NCBI RefSeq assembly: GCF_003287975.1
Contig: NZ_QMKQ01000008.1
Coordinates: 62,001-126,000 of the forward strand
Source: Arthrobacter sp. AQ5-05
GTDB lineage: Bacteria; Actinomycetota; Actinomycetes; Actinomycetales; Micrococcaceae
Length of the DNA: 64,000 bases
Reading direction: 5' to 3'
The position numbers and the translations under genes are program-made. Of this stretch, positions 2,707 through 21,769 are shown in pieces; the first letter of the stretch is position 1, and every line of letters starts with the position of its first letter. The notes under the pieces are model-generated. The model worked only from the letters and a program-made list of their open reading frames with translations, had not been told where the DNA came from and did no database searches.

Positions 2707-2723
2707 CTGTACACAGTATTCAG
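2707..2723. promoter_or_regulatory. GntR-type operator, site A
   Basis: CTGTACACAGTATTCAG matches the 17-bp consensus CTGTATACNGTATACAG with two mismatches. It sits upstream of the minus-strand sugar-importer operon (start 2662). The same palindrome occurs at five other places up to 16.6 kb, including the promoter of the gntR gene at 9964. Confidence 0.72.
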
Positions 2724-2855
2724 CACATTTGGGATAGTTTTCGGACTTTTTCCATCAGGCTCGACCAAAACAACACAGGCGGAACCCTCGATCCCAATTC
2801 CCCTGGCCCGGCACCCCGGGGCCTGGCGCCACCCAAAGAGCGGCATGGGTCACAA

Positions 2856-2904
2856 TTGACTCTTGTCACAGATCGGCATAATGTGCACTGTATACAGAAT
2901 TTCA
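2856..2904 (+). promoter_or_regulatory. Promoter of gcvPA-like gene with GntR-type operator, site B
   Basis: TTGACT at 2856-2861 and CATAAT at 2877-2882 (15-nt spacer) form a plausible promoter. The operator CTGTATACAGAATTTCA at 2888-2904 covers the expected transcription start; its left half is perfect and its right half is degenerate (5 mismatches overall). Binding there would block initiation. Confidence 0.62.
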
Positions 2905-2972
2905 CCAAGTTATCCCGCGCTGCTTCCACAGGGAATGCGCCGGGTCATGACAAAAGCAGGAGGCGACCTTCC

Positions 2973-4343
2973 ATGCAAAATTCCACAGTTCACCCCTACA
3001 TTCCCAATACGGTTCCCTCGGTCATCGAGGAAATGCTCGCGGTCACCGGAGCGACCAGCATCGAGGACTTCTACGAGGACATTCCCCAGAGCCTGCGCGT
3101 CAAGGGCCTGCTCAACCTGCCGGAGCCATTCCTTGCCGAGGCCGAACTGGAAGAGCACGTCACCGGGCTGCTGAACAAGAACCGCAGCACCCGCGAGGTC
3201 ATCAGCTTCCTGGGCGCCGGCGTGTACAACCACTACGTTCCGTCCGTCGTGGACGAGGTCATTAACCGCAGCGAATTCCTCACCGCCTACGCGGGCGAGC
3301 CCTACGAGGACCACGGCCGCTTCCAAGCACTGTTCGAGTACACCTCCATGATGGGCGAGTTGCTCAACATGGACGTGGTCAACGTACCGACCTACGATGG
3401 CATGCAGGCCACCGCCACGGCGCTGGCCATGGCCGGACGCATCACCGGACGCTCCAAGATCATCGTCGCCTCCGACACCAACCCGGATCTGGTCTCCAAG
3501 GTCACCGACTACGTGCGCAGCCACACCGAGCTGGTCTTTGTGCCGAGCGCCAACGGCCTGGTGGATACCGCTGTCTTGGCCGCCCAGCTCGACGCCGACA
3601 CCGCCGCGGTCTGGATCCAGACCCCGAGCTTCCACGGCGTGCTGGAAACCTCCGGACAGGTCATCGCGGACCTGGCGCACGGGGCCGGTGCGCTGCTGGT
3701 CGTAGGCACCGACCCGATCGCCTACGGCAGCCTCACTCCCCCGGCCGATTGGGGAGCCGACATCGTCTGCGGCGAGATCCAGTCGCTGGGCATCCACCAG
3801 TGGTTCGGCGGCGGACGCGGCGGCTTCATCGCGGTGCACGACGACCCGAAGTTCGTCATGGAGATGCCCTCGCGCCTCTTCGGCCTGGCCAGCACCTCCG
3901 TCGAGGGCGAATACGGCTTCGGCGACGTCGCCTGGGACCGTACTTCCTTCGCCGTGCGCGAAGAAGGCAAGGAATGGGTCGGCACCGCCGCAGCGCTCTG
4001 GGGCATCGCCGCGGGCGTCTACTTGGCTTCGATGGGCCCCACCGGCATGTCCGACCTGGGCAATACCGTCCTGGCACGCACCGCCTACGCCCAGCAGCAG
4101 CTCGCCGCCGTCGACGGTGTTTCGCTGCGCGATTCGGCAGCGCACTTCCGCGAATTCGTGCTCGACCTTTCGGCCTCGGGCAAGACCGCGGCCGAGGCCG
4201 TCACCGCCCTGCGCGCACGGCACATCGAGCCCGGCGTGGTCATCGGCGAGCACCACCTGCTGGTCTGCGTCACCGAACGCATCACCACGGCACACATCGA
4301 CACCCTGGTCTCAGCCCTCACCGATTTCCTGAAGGAGAAGTAA
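2973..4343 (+). CDS. gcvPA: Glycine dehydrogenase subunit 1-like protein (GcvPA-like, divergent)
   Basis: A 456-residue fold-type I PLP enzyme subunit homologous to the N-terminal half of glycine decarboxylase (P-protein). The ATG at 2973 has a strong AGGAGG 10 nt upstream. Family stretches are present: FLGAGVYNHYVPSVVDEV, TYDGMQATATA, IQSLGIHQWFGGGRGGF. The canonical segment REKATSNICTNQ, found in true P-proteins, is replaced by REEGKEWVGTAAALWG, and the AYTPYQPE loop reads AYAGEPYEDHG. It is followed after 2 nt by the GcvPB-like gene. No T- or H-protein gene is in the window. It may be a decarboxylase half acting on another amino acid or partner; the gene symbol reflects homology only. Confidence 0.82.
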   Translation: MQNSTVHPYIPNTVPSVIEEMLAVTGATSIEDFYEDIPQSLRVKGLLNLPEPFLAEAELEEHVTGLLNKNRSTREVISFLGAGVYNHYVPSVVDEVINRSEFLTAYAGEPYEDHGRFQALFEYTSMMGELLNMDVVNVPTYDGMQATATALAMAGRITGRSKIIVASDTNPDLVSKVTDYVRSHTELVFVPSANGLVDTAVLAAQLDADTAAVWIQTPSFHGVLETSGQVIADLAHGAGALLVVGTDPIAYGSLTPPADWGADIVCGEIQSLGIHQWFGGGRGGFIAVHDDPKFVMEMPSRLFGLASTSVEGEYGFGDVAWDRTSFAVREEGKEWVGTAAALWGIAAGVYLASMGPTGMSDLGNTVLARTAYAQQQLAAVDGVSLRDSAAHFREFVLDLSASGKTAAEAVTALRARHIEPGVVIGEHHLLVCVTERITTAHIDTLVSALTDFLKEK

Positions 4344-4345
4344 CA

Positions 4346-5947
4346 ATGGCCCTTCCAGTCAGCCCCAAACCAGCCCACCGCCGGTTCCACCAGGCCCGTT
4401 GGGATGAACCGATCATCTTCGAACTCAGCACCCCCGGCGAGCGCGGCATCCTGGTCTCGCAGGCCGAGCCGGCCGCCGTCGAGGCCCTGTCCGGCATCGA
4501 GGACCAGCTGGCCTCGCTGCGCCGCTCCAGCGCCCCCGCGCTTCCGGAACTGGCACAGATGCGCGTGGTCCGCCACTACCTGCGCATCAGCCAGGAGAAC
4601 CTGGGTGCCGACTTCAATGTCGACATCGGCCAGGGCACCTGCACCATGAAGTACAGCCCCAAGGTCAACGAGACGATCATCCGCACCCCGAAACTCGCCG
4701 AACTGCACCCGCTGCAGGACGAGGCCTCGCTGCAGGGCGTGCTGGAGATCTTCTGGCGCACCGAGCAGGCAATCGCCGAGATCTCCGGCATGCACTCGGT
4801 GAGCCTGCAGACGCAGGGCGGCTCCGCCGCGATCTGGGCCAACATCTCCATGATCCGAGCCTTCCACGAGTCCAACGGCGAGGGCGAGGTGCGCGACGAG
4901 GTCATCACCACGATCTTCTCCCACCCTTCCAATGCCGCCTGCGCCAAGGCCGCCGGTTTCAAGGTCATCACCCTCATGCCTGACGCCAACGGCTACCCAG
5001 ACATCGAGGCGCTGCGCGCCGCGGTTTCCCCGCGCACCGCGGCACTGATGATCACCAACCCGGAAGACACCGGGATCTACAACGACAAGATCCGCGAGTT
5101 CGTGCAGATCGTCCACGAGGCCGGCGGCCTGGCGGCCTACGACCAAGCGAACGCCAACGGCATCCTGGGAATCACGCGCGCCTCGGATGCAGGGTTCGAC
5201 CTGTGCCACTTCAACCTGCACAAGACCTTCTCCACCCCGCACGCCAGCGGCGGTCCGGGCGCCGGCGCCAGCGCCGTCTCCGAACGGCTCGCCCCGTTCC
5301 TGCCCAACCCGCGCATCGAAAAGACCGATGCGGGCTTCACCGTGAACTATGGCGGAGAGAAGTCCATCGGCAAGGTTGCACCGTTCTTCGGCGTCGCACC
5401 GAATGTGGTCCGGGCCTACGCCTGGATCATGGCCCTCGGCGCCTCCGGCCTGCGCCAGGTCGCCGAGATCGCCGTGCTGAACAACAACTACCTGCTGGCC
5501 CTGGTCCGCCGAATCCCGGGGGCCAGCGCACCGTACGCGACGGGCAAGCACCGCATCGAGCAGGTCCGCTACTCGTGGCAGGAATTGTTCGAGGACACCG
5601 GCATCAGCTCGGAGGAAATCGGCATCCGCATGAGCGACTACGGCATGCACTACTGGACCAGCCACCACCCGTACCTGGTTCCGCAGCCGTTCACCCTGGA
5701 GCCGACCGAGTCGTACTCCAAGACCGAAATCGACGAGTACGTCGCTGTGCTGGCCCAGGTCGCATCCGAAGCCCGGGAGAATCCCGATCTGGTGCGTTCA
5801 GCTCCGCACAACCAAACCGTGCACCAGATCGACCACGATGACCTGGACGATCCGGAACGCTGGGCCATCACCTGGCGCGCCTACCAGCGCAAGTACTTCA
5901 GCGGCGCCGATGCGACGTTGGCGCAAGAGCCCATTTCAGTGGGCTAA
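4346..5947 (+). CDS. gcvPB: Glycine dehydrogenase subunit 2-like protein (GcvPB-like, divergent)
   Basis: A 533-residue PLP-binding partner of the preceding protein. The PLP lysine is Lys293 in FNLHKTFSTPH, and the family GGSAAIWA region is at about 159-165. Several signatures differ from typical GcvPB. TNPEDTGIYN stands where TNPNTLGLFE is usual, YDQANANGILG replaces YDGANLNAIMG, and PHASGGPGAG replaces PHGGGGPG. The C terminus carries an extension past the usual end (PERWAITWRAYQRKYF). These changes cluster around the active site, so an altered substrate is plausible. It is translated from the gcvPA-like message and ends just before a strong terminator. Confidence 0.82.
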   Translation: MALPVSPKPAHRRFHQARWDEPIIFELSTPGERGILVSQAEPAAVEALSGIEDQLASLRRSSAPALPELAQMRVVRHYLRISQENLGADFNVDIGQGTCTMKYSPKVNETIIRTPKLAELHPLQDEASLQGVLEIFWRTEQAIAEISGMHSVSLQTQGGSAAIWANISMIRAFHESNGEGEVRDEVITTIFSHPSNAACAKAAGFKVITLMPDANGYPDIEALRAAVSPRTAALMITNPEDTGIYNDKIREFVQIVHEAGGLAAYDQANANGILGITRASDAGFDLCHFNLHKTFSTPHASGGPGAGASAVSERLAPFLPNPRIEKTDAGFTVNYGGEKSIGKVAPFFGVAPNVVRAYAWIMALGASGLRQVAEIAVLNNNYLLALVRRIPGASAPYATGKHRIEQVRYSWQELFEDTGISSEEIGIRMSDYGMHYWTSHHPYLVPQPFTLEPTESYSKTEIDEYVAVLAQVASEARENPDLVRSAPHNQTVHQIDHDDLDDPERWAITWRAYQRKYFSGADATLAQEPISVG

Positions 5948-5963
5948 CCAGATAGATGAGTGG

Positions 5964-6010
5964 CCAAGGAGGGGCTGCCGCCGGGATGACCGACGGCAGC
6001 CCCTCCTTGG
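5964..6010 (+). terminator. Intrinsic terminator of the gcvPA/PB-like operon
   Basis: CCAAGGAGGGGCTGCCG at 5964-5980 pairs perfectly with CGGCAGCCCCTCCTTGG at 5994-6010 (17-bp stem, 13-nt loop), 16 bp after the stop of the GcvPB-like gene. There is no U-tract. Confidence 0.75.
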
Positions 6011-6096
6011 CACCACCGGCATCCGGGCCCCGATTGTTGCCGGCTTCTTGATTCATCAAGGGATACCAGATGCCAGGAGGGTTTGTTTGGTCTTCA

Positions 6097-7047
6097 CTAC
6101 GGGGTGGGTCCGGGTGAAACGGGCATGTTCGGTACAACAATCAGTGTTTTGTCGTGCGCCTTCAGCTTGAGGGCAGGGCATTCGCCCTGGGGGATGGTTA
6201 CAACCATGGGGTTCGCCAGTGAACCTCCAACGATCTGTCCCGAAAGGACAGCCGGGCAGGTGGAAGGAACTCCTGCGGCATTCGCGTCCAGCACATGGAT
6301 TTGCGCAGGAATCGGCTCCGTGACGCCGGGAAGCACCGTCGCAGGTCCCACGACGGGGGCAAGCGCGAAAATGAATATTCCGGCCACAAATAGGACTGTT
6401 ATCCAAGAAACCCTCTTGATGAGGCGTTGATAGGCATCACGTCTCAGCCAATACCCCGCAGCTGCTTCAAGCCGGTCAATTCGCGAGCTGGCGACGAAAC
6501 GTTCGGCTTCGAGCCAAGCGATATCGGAAGGCGATTCCGGGTCCAGGGCACGACCGGCCCAGGTGCACTTTTGTTTTCGCTTCAAACGATCCAGCGCCCG
6601 ACCCGATCCGACGATGCCATCCTCATACAGGGCCGAAATAGTTTGGGCGTCACCCAGCAGCAAGGTGCGTCGTTCATACAGCCAAAGGAGCAGCAGGGGC
6701 AGGGCTTTCAAGCCCTCTGGCGTGGCCAAGTCGGCGTGCTTTTCGGCTTTGAAGTCCATCTCCGCATTGGATAGCTCCGTGATCGTCGGAGTGTCGATTG
6801 CCAGCACCCGCGCGGCACCGAACAGCACGAGCCCGACGGCCACCAAAGCGCCAAGCGCACCAACCGTGGCCAGGAGAGCTGCCCATGGTTGCAGGCTCTG
6901 GAGGGAGGTGAGTTGCAGCCCCGCCACGATGGCCACGGCTATTGCTCCCGCCGAGGCAACCAGCCATTTGAGAGTGCCTGCAAGATTGTTTGATTTGTCT
7001 CCGTAGCCGCCCCCGGACAGTGTTGGCGTCGATGTGGGAATATCCAA
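6097..7047 (-). CDS. Membrane protein of unknown function
   Basis: A 316-residue protein that I do not recognise. Two adjacent hydrophobic segments lie at about residues 27-48 and 56-84. A soluble stretch of about 110 residues follows, with a long helical part (RALDRLKRKQKCTWAGRALDPE). A third membrane segment comes near 218-240 (ITVLFVAGIFIFALAPVV), and then a periplasmic-side tail with two Cys (STCPAVL, GECPALK) that could form a disulfide. The start is TTG at 7047 with AAGGAC upstream. It is divergent from the Phd-like antitoxin and shares its upstream palindrome, so it might belong to that small accessory module. Confidence 0.75.
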   Translation of the reverse strand: MDIPTSTPTLSGGGYGDKSNNLAGTLKWLVASAGAIAVAIVAGLQLTSLQSLQPWAALLATVGALGALVAVGLVLFGAARVLAIDTPTITELSNAEMDFKAEKHADLATPEGLKALPLLLLWLYERRTLLLGDAQTISALYEDGIVGSGRALDRLKRKQKCTWAGRALDPESPSDIAWLEAERFVASSRIDRLEAAAGYWLRRDAYQRLIKRVSWITVLFVAGIFIFALAPVVGPATVLPGVTEPIPAQIHVLDANAAGVPSTCPAVLSGQIVGGSLANPMVVTIPQGECPALKLKAHDKTLIVVPNMPVSPGPTP

Positions 7048-7069
7048 AAGATTGTCCTTCGCTTCAGCT

Positions 7070-7087
7070 GTAGTACCTATGTACTAC
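7070..7087. promoter_or_regulatory. Inverted repeat between the divergent membrane protein and the Phd-like antitoxin
   Basis: GTAGTAC-CTAT-GTACTAC is a perfect 7-bp inverted repeat with a 4-bp spacer, 57 bp before the antitoxin start. Phd/YefM antitoxins repress their own promoters through such short palindromes, so autoregulation is likely. The site could also control the divergent gene. Confidence 0.55.
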
Positions 7088-7143
7088 ATGTGCTAGCCTC
7101 AAATCATCAGGGCTGTTTGCCGTAAATGTGGAGGGATTGCAAG

Positions 7144-7428
7144 ATGGAAATCGTTTCCCGCGTAGCCAGTTCACACACGTACAACATGCGTGAGCTGAAC
7201 CAAAACACCGCAAAGGTCATCCAGGAGATCAACGAATCGGGAGAACCTGCGCTCATCACCCGCCAAGGTCGACCTGTCGCCCTCATCACGCCGCTGGCGA
7301 ATGAGCGCGTGGAAGCTGCGGTGCTTGGCGCCGTGCTGGAGTCTGTTTCCCAATTGGGTAGCAGCGAGCCTCTTGGCGAGGTACAGGACACGGAAGAACT
7401 AGCGCGTGAATTGGGCATCAAGTATTAA
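7144..7428 (+). CDS. Type II antitoxin, Phd/YefM family
   Basis: A 94-residue protein. The ATG at 7144 has GGAGGG at 7130-7135; an in-frame ATG at 7126 lacks a ribosome-binding site. The N-terminal half matches Phd/YefM: residues about 13-45 read MRELNQNTAKVIQEINESGEPALITRQGRPVALI, with conserved N-T-A-V and the R-G-P-V-A strand. The C terminus (EVQDTEELARELGIKY) would be the toxin-binding tail. No toxin gene follows on the same strand. The only candidate partner is the convergent gene whose 3' end overlaps by 11 bp. Confidence 0.85.
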   Translation: MEIVSRVASSHTYNMRELNQNTAKVIQEINESGEPALITRQGRPVALITPLANERVEAAVLGAVLESVSQLGSSEPLGEVQDTEELARELGIKY

Positions 7429-7807
7429 TTCTGCTGCGTGCAAGGAGTCGGAGAATGTCGTCATTTGAGATGACTCGCACGATCACGACTCCGGGGTTCC
7501 GCTGGAGGTTGATTTGTTCGTCCACCGTCAACTCGCGATAGACCAAACAGTGGTCACACGCCTGGTTGCTGAATTCGTCCACGCCATCGAGCTCGAACGA
7601 CAGGTAGCTGGCCAGCTCGGACGCCCAGACGCATCGTCTAAACCGGGCCTCCGTTGCACCCACGAGTTGACCCTCTATCGCGTCGTCGGCGTGAGGGCGC
7701 AGGTCTCGATCGGCTATCTCCATGATCTGCGCTGAGACTGACGAATCACCGATAGCCCGGAGATCCTCTTTCGCGGAATTTGACCAAACCGGCACGAACA
7801 CAGTCAA
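7418..7807 (-). CDS. Possible RelE/ParE-like toxin, convergent with the antitoxin
   Basis: A 129-residue protein. The start is TTG at 7807, with GTG at 7801 or 7795 as alternatives, and the Shine-Dalgarno is poor. The beginning, VPVWSNSAKEDLRAIGD, resembles the RelE/ParE opening (strand, then S..A..DL..I helix). RRCVWASELASYLSFEL and PGVVIVRVISNDD could be the core beta strands. No unambiguous catalytic set is visible, and the family call rests on fold-like pattern and proximity only. The gene runs tail-to-tail with the Phd-like antitoxin and overlaps it by 11 bp, which is unusual for a toxin-antitoxin pair. Confidence 0.5.
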   Translation of the reverse strand: MTVFVPVWSNSAKEDLRAIGDSSVSAQIMEIADRDLRPHADDAIEGQLVGATEARFRRCVWASELASYLSFELDGVDEFSNQACDHCLVYRELTVDEQINLQRNPGVVIVRVISNDDILRLLARSRINT

Positions 7808-7912
7808 CCAGATCGGGACTCTTTCGTGAAGGCATCAACGTGACCTGCTGCCGCACCGCCAGTGGTCCGGCACGGTGGAGACGGGTGCAGCCCCGGCCTG
7901 GAAGAAGCATGA

Positions 7913-7951
7913 ATCCCGCGGGGTGAAGCGCTTGGCTTCACCCCGCGGGAT
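7913..7951 (-). terminator. Intrinsic terminator of the NAD-kinase-like/SDR operon
   Basis: ATCCCGCGGGGTGAAG (7913-7928) pairs perfectly with CTTCACCCCGCGGGAT (7936-7951) around a 7-nt loop, 22 bp after the SDR stop codon. Confidence 0.8.
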
Positions 7952-7973
7952 TTGTCGTTGGTGCGGGAACGGC

Positions 7974-8732
7974 TTAGGCGATGCCGCCGCCGTCGACCAC
8001 CAGTGCCGCGCCGGTGACGTAGCTGCTGGCGTCGCTGGCGAGCCAGATGACGGCCTCGGCGATTTCCTCGGGGGTGCCCATGCGCTTGAGCGGGCGGTCG
8101 TTGGACTCCTCCAGGAAGGCGGCCTCGGCCTGGGACAGCTGGCGGGCTTCCTCGCGCAGCATCGGGGTGTTGGTGTCGCCCGGGTTCACCGAGTTCACGC
8201 GGATGTTGTCCGGTCCGTGGTCGATGGCCAGGGCGCGGGTCATGTTCACCACGGCTGCCTTGGAGGTGCAGTAGGACAGCGCGTCGCCGCCGCCCTTGAG
8301 GCCCCAGCCGGAACCGGTGTTGACGATTGCACCGCCGCCGTCGGCGATCATCAGCGGGATCACGTACTTGGAGAGCAGGAACGGGCCGCGCACGTTAACG
8401 CCCATGACCTGGTCCCATTCCTCGAGGGTGGTGTCGATGACGTTGGCCCGGCGGATGATGCCCGCATTGTTGAACAGGACGTTGACGGTGCCGAATTCGG
8501 CCGCGGCCGCGGCGACCCCGCGCTTCACGTCTTCATCCAGTGCAACGTTGACGGCCACGCCCAGGGTCTTGACGCCAAATGCCGCGGCTTCGGCGGCAAC
8601 AGCCTGTGCCGCTTCTTCGTTGATGTCGAAGATCGCGACGTTGGCGCCTTCGGCGGCCATGGCCAGTGCCGTGGCCCGGCCGATGCCGGATCCGCCGCCG
8701 GTGACGATTGCAGACTTGTCCTTCAAACGCAT
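7974..8732 (-). CDS. SDR family NAD(P)-dependent oxidoreductase
   Basis: A 252-residue classical short-chain dehydrogenase. The ATG at 8732 has AAGGAG upstream. The Rossmann glycine motif is TGGGSGIG at about residues 12-19. IFDINEE follows beta-2, and its Asp suggests NAD rather than NADP. LFNNAGI is the NAG motif, and the catalytic YxxxK is in SYCTSKAAV with Ser in VNTGSGW. It lies 19 nt downstream of the ATP-NAD-kinase-like gene and is co-transcribed with it from the GntR-controlled promoter at 9.93 kb. It probably oxidises an alcohol or sugar intermediate of the regulon's pathway; the substrate is unknown. Confidence 0.92.
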   Translation of the reverse strand: MRLKDKSAIVTGGGSGIGRATALAMAAEGANVAIFDINEEAAQAVAAEAAAFGVKTLGVAVNVALDEDVKRGVAAAAAEFGTVNVLFNNAGIIRRANVIDTTLEEWDQVMGVNVRGPFLLSKYVIPLMIADGGGAIVNTGSGWGLKGGGDALSYCTSKAAVVNMTRALAIDHGPDNIRVNSVNPGDTNTPMLREEARQLSQAEAAFLEESNDRPLKRMGTPEEIAEAVIWLASDASSYVTGAALVVDGGGIA

Positions 8733-8751
8733 GAACTGCTCCTTGTGGTGT

Positions 8752-9900
8752 TTAGGCTCGAACCTGGGCATCAGCTGAATTGCTGATGGGATAAATTACT
8801 TCGGCTTTCGCTCCGGTAAATACTTTGATGTAGCCACAGATCGTGGCGTCCAGTTCGGGATGTCCCGAATCAACCCAGAGAGGTCGCCCGCCCAGGGAAA
8901 TCATTTTGGAAGGCGTGGCAACGATTCTCAGCTCGCTGCGTTGCAGCACGCGGTGATCGATCTGCTGGTTTCCGCGCCCGATGACGAAACCTTGCTGCCC
9001 CAGCGGGGTGACAATGATGGTGGCACCCCCTTCGGGGACCAACGAGTTCAGCGTTTCGGCGTCGACGTCCTCGGCAATGAGCCGGCCGTTGCAGATGACG
9101 TCGACTCCCAGCCGTGTCAGTTCCAAACCCAGTGCGCTGCCGATGGCCATGGTGGTGCTGCCCGGACCAAGCACGTAGTGCCGGTCCGGGACCATGGTGG
9201 CCGCGAACGCAATACCCAACGATCTGGCCGCGTTGACGTCGGAGGCGGGGCTGCCGGACTTGCGAGGCTGAAGCCGGCGGGAGTCCGCGGGCACCCGCAG
9301 CGTCCCATAGAGACTGGGGGTCGCAAGGCCCCGGCGCAATTCGTCCTCGTCGATGTCGACGACTTCGCGTTCATCGCTGCAACGCTTCGGATCGGCCAGC
9401 CAACCCGCAGCCAACGCACCGGTTTCCGAAGGCGTCAGGCCGAATACGCCGGAGTAGATCTTGACGCCGGCGGGGATGCCCAGCACCGGGACGCTGGTTC
9501 CGACCGCGTCGAGGATGTCGCGGGCCGTGCCGTCTCCCCCGGCGAAGAGCAATAGGTCGACACCTTGGTCCGCCATGTTCCGCGCCATTGACTTGGTGTC
9601 GTCGGAACTCGAGGCTCCCGGGTGGAGCGCGTCTGAGGCAACAGTCTCACGGGGCATGCCGGTGTCGAGCGCACCGGTACCCATTTCGCCGGCACCTGCA
9701 AGTATTCGCACGGCAACCCGGGATGATTCCAGCCCGTCCAACAGCCGGCGAACTGTTTGCCCGGCCCGTTCCGCAGCCAGGGAATCGATCCCCGCGCGCT
9801 CGGCCATATCGCGGATATCCGAGGCGTCGCTGCCCTTCTGGGCCAAACGGCCACCCAGGCCGGCGACCGGGTTCACAATCAAGCCAATGGTCACGTTCAT
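8752..9900 (-). CDS. ATP-NAD kinase-like protein (AcoX-type)
   Basis: A 382-residue protein. The ATG at 9900 is preceded by GGGAGGAAG; an in-frame ATG at 9918 has no site. IGLIVNPVAGLGG at the N terminus, DLLLFAGGDGTARDI at about residue 115, and VLGIPAGVKIYSGVF are typical of the NAD-kinase/diacylglycerol-kinase fold, in the group that includes AcoX of acetoin operons. Whether members of this group phosphorylate NAD is not settled. Linkage to an SDR and to a GcvP-like operon under one operator suggests cofactor supply or phosphorylation of a pathway intermediate. It is the first gene of a two-gene operon divergent from gntR. Confidence 0.85.
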   Translation of the reverse strand: MNVTIGLIVNPVAGLGGRLAQKGSDASDIRDMAERAGIDSLAAERAGQTVRRLLDGLESSRVAVRILAGAGEMGTGALDTGMPRETVASDALHPGASSSDDTKSMARNMADQGVDLLLFAGGDGTARDILDAVGTSVPVLGIPAGVKIYSGVFGLTPSETGALAAGWLADPKRCSDEREVVDIDEDELRRGLATPSLYGTLRVPADSRRLQPRKSGSPASDVNAARSLGIAFAATMVPDRHYVLGPGSTTMAIGSALGLELTRLGVDVICNGRLIAEDVDAETLNSLVPEGGATIIVTPLGQQGFVIGRGNQQIDHRVLQRSELRIVATPSKMISLGGRPLWVDSGHPELDATICGYIKVFTGAKAEVIYPISNSADAQVRA

Positions 9901-9922
9901 GTGTGAACTTCCTCCCATATTT

Positions 9923-9958
9923 CTGTATACAGTATACTGAACCCAGTCTCTAGTACAA
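9923..9958 (-). promoter_or_regulatory. Divergent promoter with GntR-type operator, site C
   Basis: CTGTATACAGTATACTG (9923-9939) has one mismatch to the 17-bp consensus. On the minus strand TTGTAC (9958-9953), a 16-nt spacer and TATACT (9936-9931) form a good promoter for the NAD-kinase-like gene, with the operator covering the -10 box. The plus-strand gntR promoter must share this gap, so autoregulation is likely. Confidence 0.75.
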
Positions 9959-9963
9959 TAGAG

Positions 9964-10674
9964 ATGATCAAATCCGGTGCTTCATCTATCGAGAATCAGG
10001 GGGCGACAGTGGCAATTCAACGCCAATCACTGCGCGAACAGATCGAAACAGAAGTCATGAACCGCGTCGGCGCAGGCGATTTCGATATGGGCGAGAGCAT
10101 CAACGAGGTAACGCTCTCGGCCGATCTCGGCGTCAGTCGGACTCCGCTGCGCGAAGCGCTCATTTCGCTATCCCAGCAGGGTGTCATTACGCGCATTTCC
10201 GGCAAGGGCTTCCGCTGGGCCCCCATTAGCGAGCGCGATTTCGCCGAGGCCGTGCAGATCATTGCCGCCCTCGAGTGCCTCGCGCTGGAGCTTAGTCCCG
10301 CAGACGAGCTGAATGTGATTGCGCCACGGATCCTGGATGCAGCGAAGGCGTTCACTGCCACTGAGGCCCTGGCCGAAGAGGTCAACAGCCACGACGATGA
10401 CTTCCACGAGCTCCTGCTCTCCAAATGCCCCAACCGACGGCTTCTGGAAACCATCGCCTCGCACAAGGTTGCCCTGCGGCGCTACGAGAAGTTCTTCGTC
10501 GGAGCCAAGGACCGCGTTGAACGAGCGGCGACCGAGCACTCGGCAATCGCCAACGCGCTTATTGCGAAGGATCTTTCCGCCGCGCAGGCGGCACTGACCG
10601 CCAACTGGCTCAACAGCACCTCTCGCATCGGCAAGGCCATGGCAAGCAAGGAAGGCGCGAAGGCGGCCGTCTAG
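9964..10674 (+). CDS. GntR family transcriptional regulator (FadR subgroup)
   Basis: A 236-residue protein from ATG 9964. A GTG at 10009 behind CAGGGGGCGACA is an equally good start and gives 221 residues. The N-terminal winged helix covers SLREQIETEVMNRVGAGDFDMGE followed by NEVTLSADLGVSRTPLREALISLSQQGVI, a standard GntR HTH. The C-terminal helical FCD domain carries metal-type residues in NSHDDDFHELLL and later His (ATEHSAI). An operator sits directly upstream, and identical motifs lie at all neighbouring promoters. This protein is therefore the probable local regulator of the whole 1-23.8 kb block; the inducer is unknown. Confidence 0.92.
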   Translation: MIKSGASSIENQGATVAIQRQSLREQIETEVMNRVGAGDFDMGESINEVTLSADLGVSRTPLREALISLSQQGVITRISGKGFRWAPISERDFAEAVQIIAALECLALELSPADELNVIAPRILDAAKAFTATEALAEEVNSHDDDFHELLLSKCPNRRLLETIASHKVALRRYEKFFVGAKDRVERAATEHSAIANALIAKDLSAAQAALTANWLNSTSRIGKAMASKEGAKAAV

Positions 10675-10687
10675 GACCGCCCACTAC

Positions 10688-10732
10688 AAAGCCGCGTCGG
10701 GAACCCCTCCGGGGATTCCCGACGCGGCTTTT
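10688..10732 (+). terminator. Intrinsic terminator of gntR
   Basis: AAAGCCGCGTCGGGAA pairs with TTCCCGACGCGGCTTT, with CCCC/GGGG pairing inside, followed by a T-run. It lies 14 bp after the gntR stop. Confidence 0.88.
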
Positions 10733-10817
10733 TGCATTTGCCCACAAGCTCGCCGACCCCGCGAACCCCCACGCCAGGTCACAATGGCGCCGCTTGATAA
10801 ATGGATCAAAAAATGTC

Positions 10818-10866
10818 TTGAACGGAAGCTGTATTCGGTATACAGTGCAAAGTATTCGATGTACAG
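10818..10866 (+). promoter_or_regulatory. Promoter of amidohydrolase/amino-acid ABC operon with two GntR-type operators, sites D and E
   Basis: TTGAAC (10818-10823), a 17-nt spacer and TACAGT (10841-10846) form a promoter. Site D, CTGTATTCGGTATACAG (10829-10845), has one mismatch to consensus and overlaps the spacer and -10. Site E, AAGTATTCGATGTACAG (10850-10866), is weaker (5 mismatches). The sites are 21 bp apart centre to centre, about two helical turns, consistent with side-by-side dimers. Confidence 0.7.
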
Positions 10867-10910
10867 AAGCTTCGAATGGCGAAAAGATCAGCGCATGATG
10901 GGGGCCCTGC

Positions 10911-12500
10911 ATGACGTTCACGGTGTTCGAAAATGCCGTTTTCCATACCCTCGACCCGCACAACCCCACGGCATCCGCCTTGGTCTCGGACGAGGGCCGG
11001 ATCCGATTCCTTGGATCCGTCGGTGGGGCCCGGGAGTTCGCCCCGCAGGCACGACGCATCGATCTTGGCGGGGCGCATGCGATGCCCGGGCTGGCCGACA
11101 GCCACATCCACACCGCCCAGTTCGCGCTGCGCCAGGCGGAGGTCGATCTCTTCCCCGCCAGCTCATCCTCGGAGGCCGTCGCCTTGGTCGCCCACCGTGT
11201 GGGGCAGCTCGATCCCGGGGACTCGACCAGCTGGATCTTCGGCGGCCGCTGGAACCACCGCGCATGGGACCAAACGGAACTCCCCGACCGGCATGAACTG
11301 GACGCCGCCACCGGTTCCCACCCCACCGCGCTGCACCACTTGGACCTGCACACCTACTGGTTGAACTCCGCGGCATTGGCATACCTCGGCATCGACGCGG
11401 CAACCCCCAACCCGGTCGGTGGCACCATCGTGCGCGACACTTCCGGCTCCGCCACCGGCATCCTGCTGGAAGCCGCCGGATTCAACGCGGGCCGGGCACT
11501 GGAGGAAGTCACCCGGGACGACCTTGCGAAGTTGTTGCCCTCCGCTCTGCGCACCCTGGTCCGCCAGGGCATCACCTCTATTCACGACATCGACGGCATG
11601 GACGCGTGGGATGCCTTCTCCGACCTTCATGAACGCCGTGAACTTCCGCTGCGGGTCAACAAGATCATGCCCGTCGCGGTGCTGGACCAAATCATCGAAC
11701 AGGGCGTGCGCAGCGGACAGGGAGATCCCTGGCTGCGGCGCGGCGGCGTGAAGATCTTCTCCGATGGGTCCCTCTCATCGGGCACCTGTCTCATGCATTC
11801 GCCCTACGGCTACTCCCGCTCCGAGGGCTTGGCCGTAACCGCGCCTCAGGAGCTGAACCTCTTGGTCAAGCGCGCCAACGACAACGGGTTGTCCGCCGCC
11901 GTGCACGCCATCGGTGACCGCGCCGTTTCCAACGCCCTGGATGCCTTCGAGCTGGCCGCGGAAGACCGCACGTCGTTGCCGGTCGCCTCCAACCGGATCG
12001 AACACGTCCAACACATCGCCCGCCGCGACCTGTCCCGGCTCGCCGCCAGTGGCGCGCTGGCCTGCATGCAACCCGCGTCATGCACCTCGGACATCGAGTT
12101 GGTCGATTCCCTGTTGGGCGACCACGACGTGCTTTCCTACGCATGGGGCAGCATCCTGGCCGCGGGCGGGGCAGTCTCCTTCAGTTCCGATGCCCCGGTC
12201 GAGGGAACCAACCCCTTCCATGGCCTCCACGCCGGAACCACCCGCCAGCGTCCCAACGGCTTCCCTGCCGGGGGCTGGCAACCCGAGGAGATCCTCACCC
12301 GCTCCCAGGCCCTGCATGCCGCGGCAACCTCGCACACCCGGGCCACCGGGGAACAGCATCTCAAGGGAACCTTGGAAACCGGAAAGCTGGCGGACTTCAT
12401 CGTCGTCGACCGCGACCCGGTTTCCTGCCCTCCCCTGGAACTTCACTCGACCCACACACTGATGACAGTCATCGACGGCCGCATCCACTGGTCCGACTAA
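10911..12500 (+). CDS. Amidohydrolase family protein (YtcJ-like)
   Basis: A 529-residue metal-dependent hydrolase of the amidohydrolase superfamily. The first metal motif is DSHIHT (His65, His67), the bridging carboxylated lysine is probably Lys281 in GGVKIFSDGSLSSG, and later ligands are HAIGDRA, EHVQH and SSDAPV. A YtcJ-type beta-sandwich frame surrounds the barrel (start AVFHTLDP, end GKLADFIVVDRDP). The start ATG has GGGGG 7 nt upstream. It is the first gene of an operon with a polar amino-acid-type importer and an SDR, under the GntR-type operators. It likely cleaves an amide or related bond in the imported compound; YtcJ-like substrates are rarely predictable. Confidence 0.9.
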   Translation: MTFTVFENAVFHTLDPHNPTASALVSDEGRIRFLGSVGGAREFAPQARRIDLGGAHAMPGLADSHIHTAQFALRQAEVDLFPASSSSEAVALVAHRVGQLDPGDSTSWIFGGRWNHRAWDQTELPDRHELDAATGSHPTALHHLDLHTYWLNSAALAYLGIDAATPNPVGGTIVRDTSGSATGILLEAAGFNAGRALEEVTRDDLAKLLPSALRTLVRQGITSIHDIDGMDAWDAFSDLHERRELPLRVNKIMPVAVLDQIIEQGVRSGQGDPWLRRGGVKIFSDGSLSSGTCLMHSPYGYSRSEGLAVTAPQELNLLVKRANDNGLSAAVHAIGDRAVSNALDAFELAAEDRTSLPVASNRIEHVQHIARRDLSRLAASGALACMQPASCTSDIELVDSLLGDHDVLSYAWGSILAAGGAVSFSSDAPVEGTNPFHGLHAGTTRQRPNGFPAGGWQPEEILTRSQALHAAATSHTRATGEQHLKGTLETGKLADFIVVDRDPVSCPPLELHSTHTLMTVIDGRIHWSD

Positions 12501-12515
12501 CACAAGGAGAAACAC

Positions 12516-13475
12516 ATGAAATCCTTCAAACAAGGAATGATCTTCACTGCCGTTCTCACTCTGGGTGCAGCAGCCCTGACCGGATGCGGCGGCCAGTCCC
12601 TCGCCGAAACCCCCTCGTCCTCCGGTGCCGCGGCGGCGGGCGTCTTCAAGAATGCGGCGCCCACGGGCGACCTCGCGGCCGCCCAGATCGCGGCCATCAA
12701 TGTCGATGCCGACCTCGCGGCCCGCGTTCCGGGAGCCATCAAGACCGGCGGACTGAAGATCGCGGCGGCCGAGGGCTATCCGCCAATGGAAATGTTTGAC
12801 ACCGACGGCAAGACCATGATCGGCGTGGACATGTCCCTGGCCCGCGCCATGGGCAACCTGCTGGGGGTCGAGGCCAAGATCAGCAACTCGGACGTATCGG
12901 GCATGATGCCCGGCGTCGTCTCGGGCCGCTTCGATGTGCTGATGTCGGGCTTCAACGACACCGCCGAGCGCCGCGAAAAGGTCTCGTTCGTCGACTACGC
13001 CAAGTCCTCGGGCTCGATCATGGTCGCCAAGGGCAACCCGGAGGGTATCAAGTCCCCGGCAGACCTCTGCGGCGAGACCATGGCAGTGCTCGACAACGGG
13101 TACTACATGCAGCTGGCCGAACAGTTCAGCAAGGATTGCGAGACCAAGAACGAGAAGCCCATCAAGATCCTGGGCTTCGCCAACGACCCCGAGGCCCTGC
13201 TGCAGGTGCAAAACGGTCGCGCCGTCGCCGGCCTGAACGACTACCCGGTGGCGGTCTTCCGTGCCAAGGAATCCAACGGGGCACTGGAGGCCATCGAGAT
13301 CCCGGGCAGCTCCCTGTTCGGCATCGCGATCGACCCGAAGAACGAGGAATTGGTGAAGCTGATCCAGGACACCATGAACAAGCTCATCAAGGACGGCACC
13401 TACGCCGAGATTCTCGGCGCCTGGGAACTGGACCGGATGGCGCTTCCCGAGGCCACCGTCAACCAGGGCAAGTAA
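12516..13475 (+). CDS. Amino-acid ABC transporter substrate-binding lipoprotein (family 3)
   Basis: A 319-residue lipoprotein. The signal peptide ends in lipobox LTGC (Cys24 in the segment TLGAAALTGCGG). The mature part shows the family-3 pattern: KIAAAEGYPPMEMFDTDGKTMIGVDMSLARAMG near residues 86-120, FDVLMSGFNDTAERREKVSFVDYAKSSG in the hinge region, and a C-terminal IAIDPKNEELVKLIQDTMNKLIKDGTYAEIL. It starts 15 nt after the amidohydrolase stop with AAGGAG. Family-3 proteins bind polar amino acids, opines or related small polar molecules, so the transported compound may be an amino-acid derivative handled by the amidohydrolase. Confidence 0.93.
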   Translation: MKSFKQGMIFTAVLTLGAAALTGCGGQSLAETPSSSGAAAAGVFKNAAPTGDLAAAQIAAINVDADLAARVPGAIKTGGLKIAAAEGYPPMEMFDTDGKTMIGVDMSLARAMGNLLGVEAKISNSDVSGMMPGVVSGRFDVLMSGFNDTAERREKVSFVDYAKSSGSIMVAKGNPEGIKSPADLCGETMAVLDNGYYMQLAEQFSKDCETKNEKPIKILGFANDPEALLQVQNGRAVAGLNDYPVAVFRAKESNGALEAIEIPGSSLFGIAIDPKNEELVKLIQDTMNKLIKDGTYAEILGAWELDRMALPEATVNQGK

Positions 13476-13478
13476 GCA

Positions 13479-14453
13479 ATGACCCAGGAACAAGTCGCAG
13501 CACCGCCGCGGCTGGTCGAGCAACCCGGGCCTGGCAACACCGTCCGGCTACGCCACCCGGGACGCCTCATAGTGGCGCTGCTGTGCATCGCTGGCATCAG
13601 TTGGTTCGTCTGGGTGCTGGCCACCAATGACCACATCATCTGGGGAAACGTCCTTTACTACCTGACGTTTCCCAAAATCTTGGACGGTGTGCTGGTCACC
13701 ATCCAGCTCTCCATCCTGGCCACGATCATGGGCCTGGCCATCGGGGTGGCCCTGGCGATGATGAAGCTCTCGGCCAATCCGGTTGCCGTGTGGATCAGCA
13801 ACCTCTACATCTGGTTCTTCCGCGGAACCCCGGTGCTGGTCCAGCTGATCTTCTGGTTCAATCTGGCCTTCCTGTTCCCGCAGCTGGTCATCAAGATCCC
13901 GCTCACGAACATCGGCTACATGTGGGACACCAACGTTGTCATGACCGGCTTCACCGCGGCCATGCTTGGCCTGGGCCTGAACCTGGGCGCCTACGCGGCG
14001 GAAACAGTGCGCGCGGGCATCCAGGCCGTGGATCCCGGCCAGGCCGAGGCCGCCGCCTCCATCGGCATGACGCCGTTCAAGCGAATGTGGGTGGTGGTGC
14101 TGCCGCAGGCCACACGCATCATCATCCCGCCGATCGGCAACGAGTTCATTTCCATGCTCAAGACCACCTCGCTGGTCTATGTGGTCGCGGGCAACGACCT
14201 GATGACCAACGCCAGCCAGATCTACAAGCAAAACGGAAAGATCATGGAACTGCTGATCGTGGCCAGCATCTGGTACATGGCCATGACCGTCATCGCCACG
14301 TACTTCCAGGGCAAGCTTGAAAAGAAGTTCGGCACGGCGGACCGTCCCATCACCGGCAAGCGCCAGAGGTTCTCCAATCCGTTCTTTTCCCGCGACAACC
14401 TGGCGGTGCTGGGCCAGCGCCTGCGCACCGAACCGCCAAGGAGCACCCCATGA
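13479..14453 (+). CDS. Amino-acid ABC transporter permease (HisM/GlnP type)
   Basis: A 324-residue permease, longer than the usual 220-250 because of an N-terminal extension and a C-terminal cytoplasmic tail of about 50 residues. Membrane segments begin near residue 27. The conserved entry [16 protein letters not shown] is at about 107-122, and the EAA loop [29 protein letters not shown] is at about 182-210. The partner permease seen in some systems is absent, so a homodimer is likely. It begins 3 nt after the binding-protein stop and overlaps the ATPase start by ATGA. Confidence 0.93.
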
Positions 14454-15256
14454 CCAGCACCACGACTTCACTCGCGCAGACAGGAACAGACAGGCACCTC
14501 CCACTGGTGCTGGCCGAACAGGTCACCAAGAGTTTCGGCAACCACCAGGTGCTCTCCGGCATCGACTTCTCCGTCGAGACCGGGGAGGTCGCCTGCATCA
14601 TCGGCCCCTCGGGCTCGGGCAAGTCCACCTTCCTGCGCTGCCTCAACGCGCTGGAAAAACCCAACGGCGGTCGCATCCGGATCGACGGCGAAGACGTGGG
14701 ATTCAACTACCGCAAGGGCAAGTTCCATGAGTGGAATTCCGCCGAGTACGCGAAGCTCCGTCTCAATGTCGGCATGGTTTTCCAGCGCTTCAATCTCTTC
14801 GCCAACATGACGGCGCTGGAAAACGTTGCCTGCGGTCCCGCCCGGGTCAAGGGCGAATCAAAGAAGCTGGCCCTGGCACGCGCCGAGGAACTCCTGGAGC
14901 GTGTGGGGCTGGCCGGCCATGGCCACAAGTACCCCATGAAGCTCTCCGGCGGCCAGCAGCAGCGCGTCGCCATCGCACGCTCCCTCGCGATGGACCCCCA
15001 GGTCATGCTGTTCGACGAACCAACCTCTGCCCTGGATCCGGAGCTGGTCGACGAGGTGCTGGAGGTCATGAAGTCCCTGGCGGTCGGGGGGATGACCATG
15101 GTGCTGGTGACGCACGAAATCGGTTTCGCTCGCGAGGTCGCGGATTCGCTGGCCTTCATCGACGGCGGCGTCGTGGTCGAAAGGGGAAATCCCCGCGAGC
15201 TCATCGCCAACCCGCAACACGAAAGGACCCAGCAGTTCCTCTCCAAGGTGCTGTGA
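14450..15256 (+). CDS. Amino-acid ABC transporter ATP-binding protein (GlnQ type)
   Basis: A 268-residue ATPase. Walker A is [12 protein letters not shown] at about residues 48-59, the Q-loop is in [10 protein letters not shown], the signature is [15 protein letters not shown], Walker B is [15 protein letters not shown], and the switch His is in VTHEIGF. All are intact. The sequence belongs to the polar amino-acid importer class rather than the MsiK class. It is translationally coupled to the permease (ATGA) and is followed after 6 nt by an SDR gene, so transport and the oxidoreductase share one transcript. Confidence 0.95.
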
Positions 15257-15262
15257 GCGACC

Positions 15263-16018
15263 ATGACTGATACCGTGACACACCAGGCATCGGTGCTGGT
15301 GATCACCGGGGCCTCCTCGGGCATCGGGGAAGCCACCGCCCAGCGCTTCGCATCCTCGGGTGCGAGGGTTTTCAACTTGGACAGGCAGCCGCCGGCAAAC
15401 GCTTCCGGCGGCGTGCAGTGGCACGAATGCGACGTCACCGATCCGGCCATGGTCCGCTCGGTGGTGGAAGGCATCGCCGCCGAGGAAGGCAGGATCGATA
15501 CGGCCATCGCCAATGCCGGCATCAGCACCCGGCATGCGTTCCTCGAGATGAGGCCGGAAGACATCCGCCGATTGCTGGAGATCAATCTCTTCGGCGTCAT
15601 CAACCTTTGGCAGGCTGCGGGCCGCGTCATGTTCGAGGCGGGTTCCGGCACCCTGCTGGCCACCGCCTCCACCAACGGATCGGCGGGGTACCCCTGGTAC
15701 TCGGATTACAACGCGTCCAAGGCAGGCGTGCTCGCACTTTGCCGTAGCGTCGCCCTGGAGCTTGCGCCCCGGGTTCGCACCGCCTGCGTCAGCCCGGGGT
15801 ACGTGCTCACCCCGATGCAGCGCAGCGAATACACGGACGAAATGCTGGCGGAGGTCAACGAGCGGATTCCGATGCGCAGGCACGCCGATCCGGCTGAGAT
15901 TGCCGACGTTTTCTTCTTCCTGGCCTCGGATCAGGCCCGGTTCATCACCGGGCAGCAATTGATCGTCGATGGAGGCGAGCTCGCCGGCGGGACGGCTTCG
16001 TCCTACCGTACCCAGTAG
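15263..16018 (+). CDS. SDR family oxidoreductase
   Basis: A 251-residue short-chain dehydrogenase. The cofactor motif is TGASSGIG at about residues 15-22, with FNLDRQP after beta-2 (Asp, NAD preference). AIANAGIS, catalytic Ser in ATASTNGS and YxxxK in DYNASKAGV complete the active site. The C-terminal VYVLTPMQRS-like segment (GYVLTPMQRSEY) and FITGQQLIVDGGEL are usual. It is the last gene of the amidohydrolase-ABC operon and distinct from the SDR at 8 kb. Together they suggest two separate alcohol oxidations in the pathway. Confidence 0.92.
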   Translation: MTDTVTHQASVLVITGASSGIGEATAQRFASSGARVFNLDRQPPANASGGVQWHECDVTDPAMVRSVVEGIAAEEGRIDTAIANAGISTRHAFLEMRPEDIRRLLEINLFGVINLWQAAGRVMFEAGSGTLLATASTNGSAGYPWYSDYNASKAGVLALCRSVALELAPRVRTACVSPGYVLTPMQRSEYTDEMLAEVNERIPMRRHADPAEIADVFFFLASDQARFITGQQLIVDGGELAGGTASSYRTQ

Positions 16019-16067
16019 CCGCAAGAGCCACTGGACGAACAACTGAATTGCCAACGAAAGCCTCGAG

Positions 16068-16089
16068 CGGGCCGGATTCTTCCGGCCCG
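16068..16089 (+). terminator. Intrinsic terminator of the amidohydrolase operon
   Basis: CGGGCCGGA (16068-16076) pairs with TCCGGCCCG (16081-16089) around a 4-nt loop, 50 bp after the SDR stop. Confidence 0.75.
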
Positions 16090-16599
16090 TTCGCTTGCGT
16101 GCCCCCTTCATCGGGCTACCTGCGAGGCAACGGGAATCGAAATCGCCGGCAACATAGACGGCCATGGGAAATCTCTTCGGTTCCATGAGCCATTACCGAG
16201 CAGTGAAATGTTTATCCACCAGCTGGAGGTCGATGCGCGCAGTCTCCCCAAGCCCACTGCCCCCTCAATCCGTCCACCGCAGGGCCCCTCGGTGCCGAGC
16301 GCGGGCAAGGGTACGGCGGGCAATCGCCCGGGGTGCCATTCGAACGGGGGCCAGGCGCGACATGTGCGGGCGCACCGCCGCGCGGCCCCGGGAACGCGCA
16401 GAAGTCCCCGCGCGACCTCGGGGGCCGAAGTCGACCTCAAGACACTTTGTTCGATTTCAAACAAAAGCAACCAAAATCACGCGGCATGTGCAATATTGCT
16501 GGTGGTGAGGCCTGGAATATCACGTATTTGCGCGGCCACGTGCCGATCGGCAAGCCCGGGCCGACGCCTTGCTTCGAACACAAACAAACAAAGTGGAAC
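16090..16599. other. Non-coding stretch without a supportable gene
   Basis: About 510 bp. Open frames here are short, use rare starts, lack ribosome-binding sites and resemble no family. Composition changes near 16440, where AT-rich sequence leads into the promoter of the next operon. I see no tRNA, repeat or remnant gene. Confidence 0.5.
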
Positions 16600-16633
16600 T
16601 TGACACAGAGTGTCTCATGTATACAGAATACAA
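16600..16633 (+). promoter_or_regulatory. Promoter of second sugar ABC/glycosidase operon with GntR-type operator, site F
   Basis: TTGACA (16600-16605) and TACAGA (16622-16627, 16-nt spacer) form a promoter. The operator ATGTATACAGAATACAA (16617-16633) has three mismatches to consensus and covers the -10. A second inverted repeat, GACAC-AGA-GTGTC (16602-16614), overlaps the -35 and may bind another regulator. Confidence 0.65.
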
Positions 16634-21648: not shown

Positions 21649-21769
21649 GCCCCGGCCAAGAACGCGCACCCACGACACCGTTGGCCCGCACGGGCTGGCA
21701 CACGTGCGGAGCGGACAGCTCCCACTGACAAACACCCGGCGGCAGGTGCCGCCACAGAAAGGAACGGAC

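Follow-up and report, generated by a model that had tools for sequence, protein, structure and literature searches.

A palindromic operator co-inherited with a GntR/FCD regulator marks a predicted catabolic regulon in Arthrobacter sp. AQ5-05

Local regulons governed by GntR-family proteins are an already known kind of control circuit, and GntR/FadR-type operators are palindromes of the GT..AC type. Here, a 64,000-nucleotide stretch of the genome of Arthrobacter sp. AQ5-05 (contig NZ_QMKQ01000008.1, positions 62,001 to 126,000 of the forward strand; hereafter the window) was analysed, in which a gene for a GntR/FCD regulator (gntR) lies among transport and catabolic genes preceded by copies of a 17-bp palindrome. 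As in GntR/FadR-type (FCD) local catabolic regulons, the predicted regulator joins a winged helix to an FCD domain, its own promoter region appears to be targeted, and the operator-like sequence is a GT..AC-type palindrome. Unlike in those regulons, 10-bp palindromes that overlap and follow one another every 7 bp make up the operator. Neither this gene set nor the widespread enzyme module within it was found described in the openly licensed literature, which is a limited set.

The regulator gene occupies positions 9964–10674 of the + strand. Its product scores above the family thresholds for both an N-terminal GntR winged helix (PF00392, 49.0 bits; cut-off 27) and a C-terminal FCD domain (PF07729, 44.6 bits; cut-off 24.3). 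The start codon may be the GTG at 10009, near the onset of orthologue similarity, instead of that at 9964. A scan of all 64,000 bases of the window for CTGTATACNGTATACAG at ≤3 mismatches returned five matches, at 2707 (2 mismatches), 2881 (3), 9923 (1), 10829 (1) and 16617 (3), and none of 100 dinucleotide-preserving shuffles of the window contained a match at this threshold. The five 17-bp sites lie upstream of six transcription units: an operon for SBP1, a sugar-type extracellular binding protein (−); gcvPA-gcvPB (+); a short-chain dehydrogenase gene, SDR1, with a gene for a kinase-like protein (−); gntR itself (+); amidohydrolase, amino-acid ATP-binding cassette (ABC) importer and SDR2 (+); and SBP1b, two permeases, GH63 and GH42 (+).

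The site at 2707–2723 lies ∼45 bp upstream of the minus-strand start of the SBP1 operon at 2662 and has counterparts before SBP1 in five relatives (G006, G002, G305, G208 and G243). That at 2881–2897 lies ∼76 bp upstream of the gcvPA ATG at 2973, contains a perfect CTGTATACAG at 2888–2897, and recurs before gcvPA in G006, G002, G305, G291, G090, G208 and G243. In the gap between the divergent kinase-like and gntR genes, the site at 9923–9939 includes TATACT on the kinase-like strand, and it is identical, CTGTATACAGTATACTG, in all nine genomes found to carry the regulator. The amidohydrolase operon is preceded by the site at 10829–10845, ∼66 bp upstream of the ATG at 10911; this site was also seen in G006 and G305, and no operator was found upstream of the amidohydrolase gene of G002. 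Finally, the site at 16617–16633 precedes the SBP1b-GH63-GH42 operon, as it does in G006 and G002.

An earlier note on this DNA had listed six sites, four of them at exactly these coordinates. A fifth, placed at 2888 with 5 mismatches, is better framed 7 bp earlier, at 2881. The sixth, AAGTATTCGATGTACAG at 10850–10866, does stand in phase with the site at 10829, which it follows by 21 bp (three 7-bp steps), but is weak at 5 mismatches; G006 and G305 have a comparable stretch after their amidohydrolase site. The note's statement that the remaining 47 kb held no other copy is borne out, given that at ≤4 mismatches the window yielded, beyond the five sites, only 7-bp-shifted overlaps of those same sites. 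In the complete genome (4,647,352 bases in 116 contigs), seven places matched at ≤3 mismatches, of which five are the window sites, and a control pattern read backward matched two. The two places outside the window lie 5′ of a different GntR-family gene and within a 373-codon open reading frame. Similar site density at unrelated loci would have spoken against a regulon; because the sites are not scattered in this way, the regulon survives the genome-wide test.

Co-inheritance of site and regulator was assessed in an even sample of 295 family genomes from a larger group, with presence defined as E ≤1e-40 for a regulator orthologue and ≤1 mismatch for the palindrome. Regulator orthologues were found in nine genomes and the palindrome in ten. 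All nine regulator-bearing genomes carried the palindrome at this locus, compared with 1 of the 286 genomes lacking the regulator; this single case, G299, had no match to any window protein in the 10 kb around its site. Of the 12 places in the nine genomes, all of which fall at this locus, nine belong to the gntR/kinase-like gap and three precede the amidohydrolase gene (G000, G006 and G305). Fisher's exact test for the association gave 2e-16, a value that is only nominal given the relatedness of the genomes. Neither regulator nor palindrome was found in four further genomes whose kinase-like gene is diverged (38–42% identity; G007, G021, G084 and G252).

The sites in relatives also fall where expected. 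Across 19 orthologous loci (364,004 bases), the pattern occurred 12, 24 and 38 times at ≤1, 2 and 3 mismatches, compared with 0–1 (≤2) and 0–4 (≤3) for 30 shuffled palindromes. All 38 matches, which include several 7-bp-shifted overlaps and reduce to 31 promoter sites, sit before the expected genes, namely SBP1, gcvPA, GH42, SBP1b, amidohydrolase and gntR/kinase-like. The operator-like site at the regulator's own promoter is thus conserved along with the regulator. What had been a motif noticed by eye becomes a regulon backed by inheritance patterns over 295 genomes and with a named regulator; on these comparative grounds the GntR-controlled regulon that the earlier note proposed is near certain, with binding to DNA as its predicted basis.

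The architecture of the operator suggests how the regulator may act. CTGTATACAG is itself palindromic, and the 17-mer equals two such elements at a 7-bp offset, so that overlapping CTGTATACAG elements 7 bp apart describe it better. A third, weaker element stands in the same phase at several promoters. Mean matches to GTATAC were 5.29 and 5.81 of 6 for the two core elements and 2.97 and 2.81 for the outer offsets; given that some self-overlap offsets likewise reach 2.81, the 7-bp periodicity of the outer elements is modest. Before SBP1b, the site at 16617 overlaps the second hexamer (CAGAAT, 16624–16629) of a promoter-like match, the only one returned by a promoter scan for which shuffled sequences averaged 2.2. 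Since the operator covers this hexamer and the TATACT on the kinase-like strand, repression would probably be exerted through covering of the promoter. The protein encoded at 9964–10674 would bind the overlapping elements at the five intergenic sites and repress the six transcription units, its own gene among them, and a compound of the pathway acting as inducer would relieve this autoregulated repression.

The two largest members of the enzyme module resemble the two-subunit P-protein of glycine decarboxylase. The GcvPA-like subunit (2973–4343, +; PF02347) scores 461 bits for NF001696 (cut-off 364), and the GcvPB-like subunit (4340–5947, +) scores 571 bits for NF003346 (cut-off 441) and retains the pyridoxal phosphate (PLP) lysine, Lys295. 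Like the Thermus thermophilus enzyme (1wyt), the pair has two subunits, the PLP lysine and the neighbouring His and Asp. By contrast, in a tree of GcvPB-like proteins the 59 module rows did not group with the canonical P-proteins and stood apart with support of 100/100, in a test with just four canonical rows and with a warning from the tree tool that long branches meet between canonical and module rows. The module rows share 33–40% identity with the Thermus row, compared with a within-clade median of 56%. The PLP lysine is present in 59 of 59 module rows, and at 16 positions, several of them beside PLP motifs, the module consensus (51–59 of the 59 rows) is unlike all four canonical rows. In the window protein the canonical YDGANLNA reads YDQANANG, and AHGSNPA reads SHPSNAA. 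Thus, proteins that pass the glycine dehydrogenase cut-offs of NCBIfam nevertheless form a separate clade with altered PLP-adjacent motifs, and the glycine dehydrogenase annotation may therefore mislead metabolic models. In G305, a disrupted second gcvPA/gcvPB copy (L033:1754–3819) was seen near another copy at 9841–12769.

The kinase-like protein (8752–9918, −) belongs to the NAD kinase/diacylglycerol kinase superfamily (PF01513 and PF20143), with GGDGT invariant in the nine rows of its alignment; judged by eye, the gene may start at 9900 instead of 9918. Identity as a plain NAD kinase was rejected, since no NCBIfam family matched at E ≤0.001 and no curated NAD kinase equivalog was hit. An AlphaFold model (predicted local distance difference test score, 82) has its nearest folds, at low template-modelling scores, among the diacylglycerol and sphingosine kinases DgkB and SphK1.

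Given that the single GntR protein as a query returned no relative in the genome-contig collection, the kinase-like alignment was used instead; it retrieved 590 confirmed relatives, the best 80 of which were used for locus counts. Near the kinase-like gene in these 80 loci, GcvPA-like genes were present in 47, GcvPB-like genes in 49 and SDR1-like genes in 30. In the 47 module loci, at ≥40% identity, 24 had an SDR1-type gene, nine an SDR2-type gene and eight both. The core module, a GcvPA/PB-like pair with a kinase-like protein and SDRs, is spread over bacterial and archaeal phyla: Bacillota (including Clostridia), Synergistota, Chloroflexota, Actinomycetota, Pseudomonadota, Bacteroidota and several archaeal phyla. 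A cluster of gntR with GH42-gcvPA-gcvPB-kinase-SDR1-SBP-two permeases-GH63 was also found in Nonomuraea (L046 and L074) and Streptosporangium (L053). A tally of all open reading frames being blurred by antisense shadow frames, 60 neighbour proteins, chosen by hand and not at random, were annotated by Pfam. Among these 60 were amino-acid permeases, peptide-binding proteins, M20 and C69 peptidases and further amidohydrolases, and no gcvT or gcvH.

Two further kinds of module locus were noted in passing. In L022, L023, L040 and L041 (from G007, G021, G252 and G084), a diverged module accompanies an amidohydrolase gene and, in some loci, a gene of the 3-hydroxyacyl-CoA-dehydrogenase type and a major facilitator superfamily carrier, with no GntR gene or palindrome. 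In an archaeal locus (L061:12368–17382), the module is followed by genes for a corrinoid protein, an MTTB-type methyltransferase and a RACo-like activator.

The glycosidase genes give a further indication of what the regulon may serve. The window encodes a GH63-type glycosidase (19927–21648, +; PF22422 and PF03200) and a GH42 beta-galactosidase (21704–23818, +) with all three GH42 domains (PF02449, PF08532 and PF08533). GH63 genes occurred near the module in five of the best 80 loci, each time together with a beta-galactosidase, which belongs to GH42 in the two Nonomuraea loci and Streptosporangium and to GH2 in Marinimicrobia (L056) and Bacteroidota (L097). In the Marinimicrobia locus the module is followed by the GH2 enzyme, a GH63 protein with a YgjK N-terminal domain, LacI, aldose 1-epimerase and a sodium symporter; in the Bacteroidota locus GH63 lies just upstream of the module and the GH2 stretch at the locus end. 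In an Aminicenantes locus (L051), GH2 genes were present and GH63 was absent within range. In the GcvPB tree, the actinobacterial group falls elsewhere than the Marinimicrobia/Bacteroidota group, whose GH63 proteins share just 24–26% identity with that of the window, so that the two glycosidase types seem to have been brought together on more than one occasion. Because separate lineages pair this core module with GH63 plus a beta-galactosidase, a glycoside substrate is indicated, and the combination points to the type Glc(alpha)-Gal(beta)-aglycone. The suggestion of a pathway for a glycosylated or amide-linked compound is thus supported in outline and narrowed to a glycoside; the amidohydrolase/amino-acid importer/SDR operon is the less constant part, complete in three of the nine regulator genomes.

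The solved proteins nearest to the window GH63 are TTHA0978, a mycobacterial hydrolase and YgjK. With YgjK and the mannosylglycerate/glucosylglycerate hydrolases it has the MGH1-like catalytic domain in common; unlike those hydrolases, it is linked to a beta-galactosidase and to the GcvPA/PB-like module. Identity as a glucosylglycerate hydrolase was rejected, the score being 109.7 bits against a curated NCBIfam cut-off of 550. YgjK reportedly prefers Glc(alpha1-2)Gal. This preference is not stated in the available portions of PMC7263609 or PMC9061262, and in the latter the natural substrate is assumed to be an alpha-glucoside other than nigerose. Structure 3k4u, reportedly solved with lysine, carries no weight in the present argument.

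Taken with the conserved neighbourhoods, these observations favour a GntR regulon for the import and breakdown of an amino compound glycosylated with glucose and galactose, to which we give a probability of roughly 0.6. Here, the importers would take up a compound bearing alpha-linked glucose and beta-linked galactose, GH63 would remove the glucose and GH42 the galactose, as their families and repeated co-occurrence suggest, and the amino-bearing aglycone would pass to the GcvPA/PB-like PLP enzyme, the kinase-like protein and the SDRs. In animals, hydroxylysine is degraded by hydroxylysine kinase and phosphohydroxylysine phospholyase. The kinase and PLP enzyme of the module could do the work of these two proteins, with the same predicted chemistry on one hydroxy amino acid and with unrelated protein families. 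PMC11012932, in its accessible part, describes the O-glycan of collagen as Gal(beta) or Glc(alpha1-2)Gal(beta) attached to hydroxylysine. The leading, if tentative, candidate substrate here is glucosyl(alpha1-2)galactosyl(beta)-5-hydroxylysine from collagen; three importers might then serve hydroxylysine with the disaccharide, with galactose alone and in free form. The animal collagen glucosidase PGGHG, a GH65 enzyme in the excerpts seen of PMC8626586 and PMC8537180, would take off the same alpha1-2 glucose as a member of another glycoside hydrolase family and of animal origin. Slightly more doubtful again is a dedicated pathway for Glc-Gal-Hyl, Gal-Hyl and Hyl with, at its core, a repurposed glycine-decarboxylase-type PLP enzyme, a kinase of the NAD/diacylglycerol kinase superfamily and SDRs, unrelated to the animal protein families. 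If the substrate guess were true, the locus would encode bacterial enzymes for a sugar-bearing residue of collagen, and a hydroxylysine-degrading route would now be annotated as glycine dehydrogenase. No description of a hydroxylysine pathway, or of a GcvPA-plus-kinase pathway, was found in the openly licensed literature.

A number of observations weigh against this reading in whole or in part. No glycosidase of the GH63 or beta-galactosidase type was in range in 41 of the 47 module loci, and many of the 60 annotated neighbours share no theme (a sigma-54 activator, DUF72, a corrinoid methyltransferase and others). In the Streptosporangiaceae loci a single sugar importer was seen, and the operator there is weak at best, with 5 mismatches in L046 and L053 and none found in the L074 gap. 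The argument from three importers holds in just three of the nine regulator genomes. In the stretches fetched, five of the nine had no orthologue of the amidohydrolase operon, apart from one 38% ATPase match in G260, and G002, which has the amidohydrolase, had no amino-acid importer or SDR2. No U32 peptidase, a sign of collagen use, was found in the Arthrobacter genome, although this is a weak test. Hydroxylysine is expected to be scarce for some module hosts, e.g. sediment archaea, and the reading does not account for what the two SDRs do. The small canonical sample in the GcvPB tree counts on the same side.

Foremost among the alternatives is the same regulon and module acting on a Glc/Gal-glycosylated aglycone other than hydroxylysine, such as a hydroxylated amine or amino acid or a glycolipid headgroup. 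The great diversity of module hosts, the many transporter types and the generic binding-protein families, which give no proof of specificity, are all in keeping with it. Set against this, no natural Glc(alpha1-2)Gal(beta)-O-amino acid is known to us other than the collagen glycan described in PMC11012932. An aglycone of this other kind is quite plausible, although at less than even odds.

A less probable alternative makes the GcvPA/PB-like pair a plain second glycine decarboxylase, fed with glycine that the pathway releases, e.g. from an N-acyl or peptide form, with the sugar genes, controlled by the same repressor, acting on another substrate. Both subunits do pass the NCBIfam GcvPA and GcvPB cut-offs, and canonical GcvP and GcvH are present elsewhere in the same genome. 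Moreover, of 23 chosen module genomes of uncertain completeness, 20 had matches to GcvH as well as to GcvT (above cut-off for GcvH in 19 and for GcvT in 20), a point against the glycoside reading in that it leaves room for a second P-protein acting on glycine. However, GcvH and GcvT were both not found in the same three of these 23 genomes, with the same caveat as to completeness, the pair belongs to a separate clade with residues changed beside the PLP motifs, and the kinase-like and SDR genes recur beside it. A second glycine decarboxylase is therefore considered unlikely.

The sites might also be operators of another GntR-family protein, the adjacent gntR being a mere neighbour. Two CTGTATACAG elements ∼60 bp apart are indeed present upstream of a second GntR-family gene of the same genome (26% identity; G000:C1:23504, L006 about 4449–4521), and thus related regulators may read similar DNA, with another regulator perhaps reading the same 10-bp element and cross-talk being possible. 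Given that the palindrome and the orthologue of the adjacent regulator occur together in 9/9 genomes and apart in 1/295, and that the gntR/kinase-like gap of each of the nine genomes contains a site, this explanation appears very improbable. The second GntR-family gene adjoins genes that, by eye, resemble prpD, prpB and prpE. Nothing was found in favour of the palindromes being chance matches or a repeat element, a notion that the shuffled windows (0/100) and shuffled palindromes (0–1 compared with 24 real matches at ≤2 mismatches) reduce to a negligible prospect.

The remaining genes of the predicted glycoside regulon are mostly those of transport. In the SBP1 operon (−), SBP1 (1355–2662; PF01547) is followed by an ABC permease (411–1352; PF00528) and by a second permease, its operon neighbour, which runs off the window at 393. 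SDR1 (7974–8771, −; PF13561) lies downstream of the kinase-like gene. On the + strand, the amidohydrolase (Amidohydro_3, 10911–12500; PF07969) is followed by an amino-acid-type binding protein (SBP_bac_3, 12516–13475; PF00497), the permease (13479–14453; PF00528) and ATPase (14450–15256; PF00005) of the amino-acid importer, and SDR2 (15263–16018; PF13561). Farther along the same strand, SBP1b (16734–18053), a sugar-type extracellular binding protein (PF01547), precedes permeases 1 (18050–19024) and 2 (19021–19923), both PF00528. Between gcvPB and SDR1, the genes at 6097–7807, which are without an operator and had no match at 1e-15 in the stretches from relatives, include one for what may be a membrane protein and two that, by eye, resemble an antitoxin and its partner.

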